A stretch of DNA of 64,000 nt, taken from positions 124,001 through 188,000 of the forward strand of contig JAAYAX010000011.1 of the NCBI GenBank assembly GCA_012719175.1. The letters are read 5' to 3'. Below, piece by piece: positions 30,375 through 35,221 of the stretch (its first letter is position 1; each line of letters opens with the position of its first letter). Both the position numbers and the translations under genes were made by a program. Under the pieces are notes generated by a model. It saw only the letters and a program-made list of their open reading frames with translations. It was not told the DNA's origin and did not search any database. The DNA is from Methanomassiliicoccus sp. (GTDB taxonomy: Archaea > Thermoplasmatota > Thermoplasmata > Methanomassiliicoccales > Methanomassiliicoccaceae).

Positions 30375-30617
30375 TCACTGTGATCCGTCGGCCTCAGTGG
30401 CCGCATATCTCCAGAGAAGGCCAAGCCCCCCTGCCACAAAAGCGATCGACAGGCCCAGGGAGATCCCGATATCATCATCCATGAGCTTCAACGCCGCGGC
30501 GGGGCCCCCGGACGAGACACCATCTCCCACTAGGAGGGCGGCCAGCACCATGGCCGAAGCTGTGGTAGCGATGAGAATACCTATGCATATGCTGTTGAAT
30601 CTCAGGGGGGTCAACAT
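30375..30617 (-). CDS. Small membrane protein, two helices
   Basis: An 80-residue protein with two membrane helices (residues 11-30, CIGILIATTASAMVLAALLV, and 50-68, ISLGLSIAFVAGGLGLLW) joined by an acidic loop with LMDDD. A TATA-like GAAATATTTG about 25-30 bases upstream of the ATG suggests a leaderless transcript. No family recognised. Confidence 0.6.
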   Translation of the reverse strand: MLTPLRFNSICIGILIATTASAMVLAALLVGDGVSSGGPAAALKLMDDDIGISLGLSIAFVAGGLGLLWRYAATEADGSQ

Positions 30618-30719: not shown

Positions 30720-31064
30720 CTAGGACCTTTGGGTCCTGCTCCAAACGCTATAACCGCCGTCAAGCACCAGTATTTCACGATACCCGCGGGAGGACAGTAG
30801 GTCGGCCGACCTGCGCGCCCGGTTGATGGTCCGGCAGTAAACGATCACCGTCCGCTCCTTGTCCAGCTCTCCGCTCCAAGCTTCCAGCTGGGACAGGGGC
30901 CGGGACATTGCCAGCGGTATGTGCCCGGCATCATACTCTCCTTTCTCCCTCACATCCAGGAGGTAACAGCTCTCCTCCCTGATCTTTTGCTCATAATCCT
31001 TCAATCGGTCCATTGGGAGGAGAGTGAATCTGCTCATGCCCCATACCTTACGCGGACGTGACAT
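30720..31064 (-). CDS. Rhodanese-like protein
   Basis: A 114-residue single-domain rhodanese. The sulfur-carrying cysteine is in the active loop YCRTINRARRS (residues about 78-88), preceded by the family lines YLLDVREKGEYDAGHIP and followed by LDGGYSVW. Such proteins move sulfane sulfur, for example to thiolation or Fe-S assembly enzymes. ATG 31064 is supported by a strong GGGGGA site six bases upstream, which overlaps the stop codon of the ATPase gene before it; the two are clearly one operon. The loop is larger than the classic CRxGx[RT] form, so substrate is uncertain. Confidence 0.88.
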   Translation of the reverse strand: MSRPRKVWGMSRFTLLPMDRLKDYEQKIREESCYLLDVREKGEYDAGHIPLAMSRPLSQLEAWSGELDKERTVIVYCRTINRARRSADLLSSRGYREILVLDGGYSVWSRTQRS

Positions 31065-31075
31065 AATACTTCCCC

Positions 31076-31966
31076 CTAACCTCGTATCTCCAACTCCCTG
31101 TCCACACGGCCGGTGGACCGCAGAGCATGGATGTCTCTTGCATCGGAGAGGAGGAAGATCAACTGGCGGGAAGGGAACAGGTCCAGTATATGGCGGTACT
31201 GCTCCATGAGATCATGGCTCTCTCCAAGCGGGTCGGCCATGATGACCGGGCAGACTGGCGCGTTCTCGCGGGCGAACGCCAGGGCATGGCTCAGAAGGGC
31301 CAGCCGGGCCTGGGACTGGGACGGGGGGCCGCTGAGAGTAAGCTCCAAACGCCCTTCAGGACCGTAATCCAAGGCATCAACGCCTCCTTCCGGGCACAAC
31401 CTGTGGAACAGACCGGTGGTCTCCTTGGCGCACCTCAGGGAGAGGTCGCTGGTGCACCAGTTATCGCTGCACTGCACGGCCCGCTCAGGACCGCTGCGGC
31501 GGCCGTGAATGATCTGCATCAGGTCCGAACCGTCTATTAGGTTGGCATGAACGCATGCTTCCGGGAACAGCCTCTCCTGGTGCTCAATGAACTCCTCTGT
31601 GTCATCCCCCTCGGCGACGATGCTGGTATCGACAGACCTTCTCAACCTCCACCCCCATCCCTGCTGCGCCGTCCTCCCCTCCTCCTTGGAGAACAGGGCG
31701 TAGCGCTCCAGCGACTCTCCGTTCACGAACGTCAACGACACCATGACCTGGGCCATCCCTGAGCCCAACACATCCACGTTCGGGACCTGACCAGGATCAG
31801 ATACCAGCTCGTTGCCCAGAAGGCACCAGGATATTGCCTCCAGGAGTGTGGACCTTCCCATCCCGGAAGGGATGGCGATGAGATTCACGCCGGGGTCCAG
31901 GGGGAGCTCGATCTCACCATGGAAGCGGCGATAGTTCACAAGGAGTATGGAGGTAAGCTTGGCCAT
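31076..31966 (-). CDS. Degenerate ABC/SMC-type ATPase-like protein
   Basis: A 296-residue protein of the RecF/Rad50/SMC head fold. It begins ILLVNYRRFHGEIELPLDPGVN, the usual first strands of these proteins. The Walker A site reads IPSGMGRST (residues about 33-41), with arginine in place of the lysine that binds phosphate. The signature region is LTLSGPPSQSQARLALLS instead of LSGGE, and the Walker B region is VIMADPLGESHD, where the usual DE pair is absent. It has no coiled-coil arm. It may bind nucleotide weakly or act as a structural ATPase relative. It shares an operon with the rhodanese; the pairing is unfamiliar to me. Confidence 0.7.
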   Translation of the reverse strand: MAKLTSILLVNYRRFHGEIELPLDPGVNLIAIPSGMGRSTLLEAISWCLLGNELVSDPGQVPNVDVLGSGMAQVMVSLTFVNGESLERYALFSKEEGRTAQQGWGWRLRRSVDTSIVAEGDDTEEFIEHQERLFPEACVHANLIDGSDLMQIIHGRRSGPERAVQCSDNWCTSDLSLRCAKETTGLFHRLCPEGGVDALDYGPEGRLELTLSGPPSQSQARLALLSHALAFARENAPVCPVIMADPLGESHDLMEQYRHILDLFPSRQLIFLLSDARDIHALRSTGRVDRELEIRG

Positions 31967-32053: not shown

Positions 32054-32491
32054 CTACTGTCTCTTCCTGACCCTGTCCGGGGAGTAGGGCAGCATGATGC
32101 CAAGCTTGCCTTCGATGTCCTCGATGCGCCCGCACAGGTCGTCAACCTCCATGTCCCTCTTGTTCCTCTCGATGTTGGTCTTGAGCTCGTAGTACTTGAA
32201 CGTCCCAATGGTGATAGGTATGGACTGGGCCAAGGACGCGGCGGTTATGACAAGATAATCGTTGTCAAGGTTGAGGGCCACAAGGCCGATGAACGCCATG
32301 GGGACGATGAGGGCCAGATACCACCAAGAAAGGCCTGCTTCCTGCCCCATCTCCCTCCCCTCGACGGCGCGGGTTATGACCATGAAGGCCACGAGAATGA
32401 AGATGGGGATTATGATGAAGAACACCGCCAGCTGTAATATCATGTCCCCAGTGAGGCTGAACTCTGTCAATGACCTGCCCTCCCGCCACAT
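32054..32491 (-). CDS. Membrane protein with two or three helices and coiled-coil tail
   Basis: A 145-residue protein. Hydrophobic segments cover residues 17-40 (MILQLAVFFIIIPIFILVAF), 56-72 (LALIVPMAFIGLVALNL) and possibly 79-94. After these a charged helix (YELKTNIERNKRDMEVDDL, 100-118) forms a likely coiled coil, ending in DRVRKRQ. I do not recognise the family. It stands alone on the minus strand before a long gene-free stretch. Confidence 0.65.
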   Translation of the reverse strand: MWREGRSLTEFSLTGDMILQLAVFFIIIPIFILVAFMVITRAVEGREMGQEAGLSWWYLALIVPMAFIGLVALNLDNDYLVITAASLAQSIPITIGTFKYYELKTNIERNKRDMEVDDLCGRIEDIEGKLGIMLPYSPDRVRKRQ

Positions 32492-33095: not shown

Positions 33096-33401
33096 GTGCT
33101 CGTACGGATCTATTCCTCATCCTCCGACAGTCATGCCAAGGACCTGCACCAAAGGTTCCGGTCCAACGGCCCTTGTCCATATGGACATAGTGAGTTCATC
33201 ATAGGCAAGGTCAAGGATGTGGAGGAGAGAACAGGCGGTTTCGTGTTCTTGGTGGAGATCACCAATCCCGCGGCGGTCGAGTACCTTAGAGCTCATAACA
33301 TAAACGAGAACAAGAGAGGCCTAAGCTTCTATCTGAAGCTCATCAAGGGGAGGGGGCCGAGGCGTGGGGCGGGCCGTCTACCATACCAACGTGTTCCTTG
33401 A
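33096..33401 (+). CDS. Hypothetical protein flanked by AT-rich blocks
   Basis: A 101-residue protein, start GTG 33096 (GTGCTCGTACGG). It has a CPYGH motif near residue 27, a strand-rich middle (EFIIGKVKDVEERTGGFVFLVEIT), a helix PAAVEYLRAHNINE and a basic end (GRGPRRGAGR). No family recognised, and no strong ribosome binding site precedes the start. AT-rich blocks on both sides (33030-33085 and 33474-33525) set it apart from the GC-rich neighbours. Confidence 0.5.
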   Translation: MLVRIYSSSSDSHAKDLHQRFRSNGPCPYGHSEFIIGKVKDVEERTGGFVFLVEITNPAAVEYLRAHNINENKRGLSFYLKLIKGRGPRRGAGRLPYQRVP

Positions 33402-33760
33402 GATGACCTAGGGTCTCCCCTTTCCCCTTACAGACCTGGTCAAGCCATAGAGGCCTTCTCAGGTCGTATCATGCTATGATAACTAAATGATTAATTATAT
33501 AGATAAATATAATATTATTATCATACTCCGTCCTAGAGCGCACCAACCATCTCCTCGCAGAATCACTCTTGATGGGCATTGTATCGTGGGGCGCCTAGGG
33601 CGGTTTTAAAACATCCTCCAATCGATCACCTTCTGATCTATGCGCATGGACACCCGGGGGCCGTGCCCACCTCTGAAAAATCATGATGTCCTATGAACGA
33701 AAAACGTTTATTTATATAACTCAAAGTACTGGCGTCACCAAGGAATGGAGATATTCTATC
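33402..33760. other. Gene-free stretch with AT-rich block and promoter
   Basis: Bases 33474-33525 are almost pure A and T. The rest is GC-rich and shows no gene. The right end carries the promoter of the NYN gene. No RNA gene could be recognised. Confidence 0.45.
33711..33718 (+). promoter_or_regulatory. TATA box of the NYN-LOTUS gene
   Basis: TTTATATA preceded by the A-rich GAAAAACG. The start site would fall near 33740, about 20 bases before ATG 33761, with GGAG at about 33747 as a binding site. Confidence 0.55.
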
Positions 33761-35221
33761 ATGGACGAGAAGCGCATCGAGGACAGGCAACTGGCCTTCC
33801 TGGTAGATGGAGATAATGCCTCTGCAACATTGATAGAGGAGATGTTGGCAGAGGCCTCCAAGTATGGGTCGATCATCATCCGGAGGGTCTACGGCAACTG
33901 GACCGTGGGAGGGCAGGTCAACACGTGGAAGACCAAGCTCAAGGAATACGCGCTTACACCCTATCAGCAGTTTCCCAACATCTCCAACCGGCATGTCACG
34001 AAGAACGCCACTGACATCGCCCTCATCATCGATGCCATGGACATCCTCCATGACGGCATCGTGAAGGGCTTCGTCATCGTGTCCAGCGATTCGGACTATA
34101 CTTCTCTGGCCATTAAGATACGGGAGCACGGCCTGTTCGTCATCGGGATGGGAAAGAAGGAAACACACGATTCCTTCCGCCGAGCCTGCGACGTGTTCGT
34201 ATCCACCGAGAACCTGGGGAAGGAGCCCGAAGAGGAGGAGGACAAGGAGGCGCCACAGGCCCCCAGGAGCCATGCCAAGCCGAGAAGGGTCCCCAGGGAT
34301 GCCATCGACATCCTCAACCGGGCCTTCGAATATGCGGTCAACGATGATGGGAGAGCGCTGAACGGGGACATCGGTGCGGCCTTGCGCCGCCTGGACCCCG
34401 CGTTCGATACCAGGACCTATGGGAAGCAGTCCCTACTGAACCTCATAAATGAACTGGACGATCTGTATGAGGTGGAGAGGTCGGATAGAGGGGCCATATA
34501 TGTGCGCCGCAAGGGAGAGCCCCTCCCCCCTGCACTGGAGGAGAAGCCTCTCAATCAAGTAAAAGGATTGGAGGACCGCTCTGGGCAGAACGGTCGTTCT
34601 GCGATCGATGCCCTCCCCCTGCTTCTAGAGGCTTACAACATCGTGGAGAAGAACGGTGACGGCACGGTAGAGACCTTCCGCCTGTTCAAGGCCGCCAAGA
34701 AGCTGGACCCCGGCTTCGATAGTTTGAACTATGGGAAGGAGAAGATCTCCCATCTTCTGGAAGCCCTTCCTGGACACTTCGAGCTACTCGGCCGGCGTGG
34801 AAAGAGCATGCTGGCCCGAAGGGTGGACAAGAAGGCGGAAGAGGAGATCGTGGAGAGCGAGGAGATGCCGGCACCTGAACCGGAACAACCCACTATCGTC
34901 CAAGAGGAGGTGCCGGAGGCGGCCCCCCTTATCGAGCCCCAGTCACCACCGAAGAGCCAGATAGACCTGCTTAAAGTGGTCACCTCGGCCTTCGAGAACA
35001 CGGTCAAGGATGATGGCCGGTCGTACTTGCCCCAGATGAGCAAGGAGGTCAAGCGGTTAGACCCCACTGTGGACTTCAAGAGCCATGGGAAGGCGGGCCT
35101 TCGCGAGTACCTTGAGGAGTTCAGCGATGTGTTCACCCTTCACAAGGAGGGCCGTAACATCTACGTGAGCAAGCGTAAGGGAAAGAGGCCCTCTCAGCAC
35201 ATCAGCGAACTAGTGAGGTAA
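33761..35221 (+). CDS. NYN-domain putative ribonuclease with three LOTUS/OST-HTH domains
   Basis: A 486-residue protein. Residues 10-150 are a NYN (PIN-like) nuclease domain, with acidic residues Asp16 and Asp18 (LVDGDNA), Asp85 (NATDIALI) and Asp110/Asp112 (VSSDSDYTS). Three LOTUS/OST-HTH winged-helix domains follow at 180-250, 280-353 and 400-471, each with the pattern LD...D...YGK or HGK...L and a final IYVRR- or IYVSK-like strand; acidic linkers separate them. NYN-LOTUS proteins such as MARF1 and Limkain b1 in animals cleave RNA, and LOTUS domains bind RNA (G-rich or G4) or partner helicases. Bacterial and archaeal members usually have one LOTUS domain, so three is unusual. ATG 33761 is preferred to the longer frame at 33683, which spans the TATA box. 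Confidence 0.88.
   Translation: MDEKRIEDRQLAFLVDGDNASATLIEEMLAEASKYGSIIIRRVYGNWTVGGQVNTWKTKLKEYALTPYQQFPNISNRHVTKNATDIALIIDAMDILHDGIVKGFVIVSSDSDYTSLAIKIREHGLFVIGMGKKETHDSFRRACDVFVSTENLGKEPEEEEDKEAPQAPRSHAKPRRVPRDAIDILNRAFEYAVNDDGRALNGDIGAALRRLDPAFDTRTYGKQSLLNLINELDDLYEVERSDRGAIYVRRKGEPLPPALEEKPLNQVKGLEDRSGQNGRSAIDALPLLLEAYNIVEKNGDGTVETFRLFKAAKKLDPGFDSLNYGKEKISHLLEALPGHFELLGRRGKSMLARRVDKKAEEEIVESEEMPAPEPEQPTIVQEEVPEAAPLIEPQSPPKSQIDLLKVVTSAFENTVKDDGRSYLPQMSKEVKRLDPTVDFKSHGKAGLREYLEEFSDVFTLHKEGRNIYVSKRKGKRPSQHISELVR

Follow-up and report, generated by a model that had tools for sequence, protein, structure and literature searches.

A coil-less Rad50-type head protein encoded beside a rhodanese in Methanomassiliicoccaceae, with altered nucleotide-site residues in one lineage

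The 64,000-nucleotide stretch of DNA from the methanogenic archaeon Methanomassiliicoccus sp. analysed here (the window) contains a gene for a 296-residue protein whose predicted structure is an entire ABC head of the type found in the DNA-repair protein Rad50, with its two lobes directly joined. The gene belongs to a set that also encodes a rhodanese and small membrane proteins, and it has lost residues of the nucleotide site in the lineage of the window while the fold appears to be retained. We postulate, with a probability of about 0.45, that the head serves a membrane-linked rhodanese as its scaffold or as a nucleotide switch and that it has become a pseudo-ATPase in the window lineage. 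Positions of the relevant features are collected in Table 1.

Table 1. Features of the ATPase-rhodanese locus (positions within the window)
Feature	Position	Strand	Basis
Coil-less Rad50-type ABC head protein (predicted), 296 aa	31076..31966	(-)	ORF, Pfam, predicted fold
Walker A GMGRST, residues 35-40; Arg38 codon AGG at 31853-31855	31847..31864	(-)	
Asp145 (LIDG); Ser (LISG) in ten Lys-bearing orthologs	31532..31534	(-)	
SGPPSQSQ from residue 212, at the expected place of the ABC signature; aligned to Rad50 FSGGEG	31310..31333	(-)	
Walker B region VIMADP, residues 241-246; LDEP or LDDP in most orthologs	31229..31246	(-)	
11-base spacer with purine-rich stretch, from ATPase stop (TAG 31076-31078) to rhodanese start	31065..31075	(-)	
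Single-domain rhodanese, 114 aa, active-site CRTINR with Cys77	30720..31064	(-)	Pfam
Small membrane protein of 80 aa with a pair of hydrophobic helices; third in the conserved set	30375..30617	(-)	
Membrane protein, 145 aa, upstream of ATPase; only in window and G003 among loci examined	32054..32491	(-)	
NYN + OST-HTH/LOTUS protein, divergent; adjoins ATPase in 13/13 loci	33683..35221	(+)	

The protein matched the AAA_23 family of Pfam above the cut-off (E 2.8e-8). An AlphaFold model built from 11 orthologs was confident (pLDDT 90.0, pTM 0.89) and displayed the ABC head fold of both N- and C-lobes. Its best structural match was the Rad50 head of P. furiosus (Foldseek E 6.3e-16, TMq 0.70), with which it could be aligned over residues 2-296 (VIA Z 23.8, rmsd 3.3, 275 aligned). 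By sequence, the N-lobe alone matched Rad50 in the PDB (3qf7, E 6.7e-9), and residues 4-83 were 43% identical to the Rad50-like protein of the same genome. A long coiled coil with its Zn hook is absent from the 296-residue model, where short helices join the lobes. The match of the full chain to solved Rad50 heads thus suggests that the protein consists of both Rad50-type lobes minus the coiled coil. The initial annotation had proposed a RecF/Rad50/DndD-like head, and profile searches support this, yielding matches to the N-lobes of Rad50, arcadin-4, PbeC, LmuB, PtuA and DndD, all of them far below the curated cut-offs where the library provides one. The resemblance to the Rad50 of archaeal Mre11-Rad50 therefore extends to the whole-chain fold and the N-lobe sequence; unlike Rad50, the window protein lacks the coiled coil, the hook, the signature GG and the switch His. 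A Pfam scan of ten neighbouring proteins revealed no match to the Mre11 family or to DndE.

Both changes to the nucleotide site that had been noticed initially, Lys to Arg in Walker A and the missing DE in Walker B, are present in the window protein. The same Arg and the same MADP sequence occur in a sister genome, G003, whose protein is 86% identical; because this assembly is independent, a sequencing error can be excluded for either change. The motifs were then compared in an alignment of 13 orthologs, one of which (G013) is partial; Walker B was read in 12. The Walker A residue is Lys in 11 of the 13 and Arg in the window and G003 only. Walker B reads LDE in six orthologs, LDD in three, MED in G006 and MAD in the Arg pair. 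In the ortholog tree this pair forms a single clade with support 100/100 (five other inner branches are weak). Hence the "dead" state is derived and specific to one lineage. The view of a catalytically damaged head applies to the window protein and does not describe the family, an intact Lys being found in a 62%-identical homologue (G006) and in ten others; this goes part of the way towards the refutation that the initial annotation had set for itself.

A different set of residues is missing throughout the family. When 12 orthologs were aligned with the Rad50-like protein of the same genome, neither the SGG signature nor the switch His was found in any of the 12: the Rad50-like FSGGEG corresponds to a variable stretch devoid of GG, and LITH to LLS followed by D, E, N or R. 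The letters SGPPSQSQ, singled out initially as the signature, are indeed there, but they are not a conserved signature variant, since this stretch varies among orthologs and none has SGGE/Q. These alignments indicate that signature GG and switch His disappeared early in the family, whereas the residues for phosphate and Mg were lost later, in the window lineage. Cys138 is shared without exception by the ten Lys-bearing orthologs and both members of the Arg pair.

Is the window gene, then, on its way to being lost? The Walker A Lys and Walker B Asp are gone, the ortholog of G005 has an in-frame TAG, and one family member, G007, is without the gene. Nevertheless, the window frame is full-length, and of the 53 columns that do not vary among the ten full-length orthologs with Lys, both sisters have changed at only two (K38R and S145D). 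A third, G17, is altered in G003 alone, so that 51 of the 53 are unchanged in at least one member of the Arg pair. The Walker B Asp is also replaced by Ala in the pair. Between the window and G003, dN/dS (a simple pairwise estimate) was 0.18 in the case of the ATPase, 0.23 in that of the rhodanese and 0.05-0.33 across six neighbouring genes; for the ATPase, values among G001, G002 and G005 were 0.16-0.20. The small number of invariant columns affected and the dN/dS of 0.18 argue that the gene is not decaying. To judge from these comparisons, it is still maintained by purifying selection, and a dead gene awaiting loss is quite unlikely. It is also possible to imagine that the window protein still binds ATP or slowly hydrolyses it, Arg38 and Asp245 acting as substitutes. 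Nucleotide binding survives a K-to-R change in some P-loop proteins (Rad51/RecA), and the Asp of MADP could be the Walker B Asp with the register shifted by one residue, as in the IIADT of a DndD-like protein. However, a Glu is present in neither register, and the signature GG and switch His are missing as well; residual ATP use is in our opinion unlikely.

On the minus strand, the order of transcription is ATPase-like gene, rhodanese, 80-residue two-helix protein. Both the ATPase and the rhodanese frames were found with the 11-base spacing described initially. The ribosome binding site, which had been called strong and overlapping the ATPase stop, is only fair: the stop TAG lies in AGGTTAGGGGGAAG, which is purine-rich but non-canonical. 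The rhodanese matched Pfam Rhodanese well above the cut-off (E 3.5e-19) and its Cys is invariant in 10/10 aligned sequences, suggesting that the enzyme is probably active. This match and the Cys loop make it similar to single-domain rhodaneses of the GlpE/PspE type, from which it differs in scoring below the cut-off of every NCBIfam model matched.

The pair proved to be conserved when its co-occurrence was checked across the family genomes, a check that the initial annotation had proposed: a rhodanese lies downstream in 11 of the 13 genomes that bear the ATPase, a count that includes G013 (ATPase split over two contigs), G011 (N run before the rhodanese) and G009 (genes about 600 bases apart). 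The two genes remain neighbours in three genera, at protein identities as low as about 35-40%. A two-helix protein comes next at 11/13 ATPase loci, G008 and G010 being the two where it was not seen; the copy in G014 is only weakly similar to that of the window (14 of 300 shuffles reach its score) and is 51% identical to that of G013. A four-helix protein is found in 7/13 loci, all outside the genus of the window. The coupling is not obligate, since G005 and G014 have the ATPase with no rhodanese at the locus and G007, which is 99% complete, has a rhodanese relative without a full-length ATPase match. The latter gene lies behind a putative transporter-like gene, near putative hydrogenase-like genes. 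Neither gene was found in G004, whose genome is 67% complete. We found no description of the pair in the literature searched; the parts of the papers available to us mention rhodanese for Halobacteria only (Fusion/fission paper, PMC11237513) or lack the word "rhodanese" (Dnd reappraisal paper, PMC10853773).

Taken together, a minimal Rad50-type head would be co-expressed with the rhodanese and small membrane proteins from what may be a family-specific operon, and would serve as a nucleotide-gated scaffold or switch positioning the rhodanese, perhaps at the membrane. In the window lineage, loss of the nucleotide site (K38R and Walker B Asp to Ala) with retention of the fold would leave a pseudo-ATPase scaffold that presumably does not hydrolyse ATP. 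The predicted fold, orthology, motif states, gene order and purifying selection on which this builds are observations. A scaffold or switch is favoured over a cycling motor because the entire family is devoid of the signature GG and switch His. We consider it nearly as likely that the head and the rhodanese work in separate processes, their unrelated genes having no more in common than a transcript or a stable part of the chromosome. The two genes part in both directions (G005 and G014; G007), and the whole neighbourhood stays linked, including the NYN-LOTUS gene, which makes adjacency alone weak evidence. Against separate processes stand the breadth of that adjacency (11/13 genomes, three genera, to the identity given above) and the overlap of the mechanically called rhodanese and four-helix frames in six genomes (G008, G009, G010, G011, G012 and G013). 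Heads of the Rad50/SMC type that lack a coil, and pseudo-ATPase forms of them that are maintained, make useful test cases, and sister species with Lys or Arg in the same operon provide a natural comparison of the role of a head with and without nucleotide. If the head is tied to the rhodanese, SMC-type heads would extend beyond DNA work.

Two further explanations involve sulfur. The initial annotation had raised DNA sulfur modification. The N-lobe is weakly similar to PbeC and DndD profiles, the best PbeC profile weakly matching 11/11 members; a 645-residue DndD-like protein of another genome can be aligned with an LFP...DG-type stretch located behind the N-lobe; and the sulfur could come from the rhodanese. 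Yet neither DndC nor DndD exceeded the model cut-off in any of the 15 family genomes, and the gene set carries membrane proteins instead. The window protein is about half as long as the DndD/PbeC (CxC-clade) coiled-coil ABC ATPases and has no coiled coil. We rejected the link, and a Dnd-like module deserves hardly any credence. Alternatively, a membrane-linked rhodanese could have recruited the head as a subunit for sulfur relay or regulation that does not hydrolyse ATP and that receives rhodanese sulfur on the invariant Cys138 or on the C-terminal Gly296, the latter by analogy with carriers that are loaded at their terminal Gly. Such a subunit would have no need of nucleotide binding, so that one lineage could lose it yet keep the protein; we regard this as very improbable.

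Wherever the C-terminus can be read (12 orthologs), the protein finishes exactly at E-[IV]-x-Gly-stop. E1-like ThiF genes exist in 15/15 family genomes. A thiocarboxylate at the terminal Gly was nonetheless rejected, except within the sulfur-relay proposal: the Pfam scan of the ten neighbours gave no ThiF match, and in the model the last strand is followed by no more than three residues. The ATPase stop is TAG in 8/12 orthologs and TGA in 4/12. The order decodes TAG as pyrrolysine. Of 62 non-overlapping stop-to-stop ORFs of at least 150 codons in the window (called mechanically, not curated genes), 17 terminate in TAG, which is therefore not a rare stop there. Readthrough of the ATPase TAG was discarded, the stop being in frame with the rhodanese only in G006 (TGA) and G008 (TAG), about as expected by chance. 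In the G005 ortholog (L005 1501-2391(-)), the in-frame TAG is codon 203, a Glu in most orthologs of the same genus, and the rhodanese is missing alongside; this could reflect a pseudogene, an assembly error or pyrrolysine.

Full-length orthologs were detected in 13/15 family genomes and some match in 14/15, that of G007 being a long Rad50-like frame only. No full-length match outside the family was among the matches listed from 400 genomes of the class (8 of the family), in each of which no more than 5 candidates were scored; the non-family matches listed cover the N-lobe only, nearly all in long frames. A contig scan of genomes returned ten family loci and two short P-loop matches in bacteria. 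A viral origin was dismissed, 21 pattern matches in a scan of viral contigs including no relative. The product of the NYN + OST-HTH/LOTUS gene, with identities of about 64-93% within the family, is a putative RNA-processing protein and may be the real conserved neighbour of the ATPase. Between these two genes, the small genes at 32054-32491 and 33096-33401 are confined to the window and G003 among the loci examined, and five other loci (G008, G009, G011, G012 and G013) carry a TM2-like gene in the interval. The gain of the two small genes coincides with the loss of the Walker Lys.
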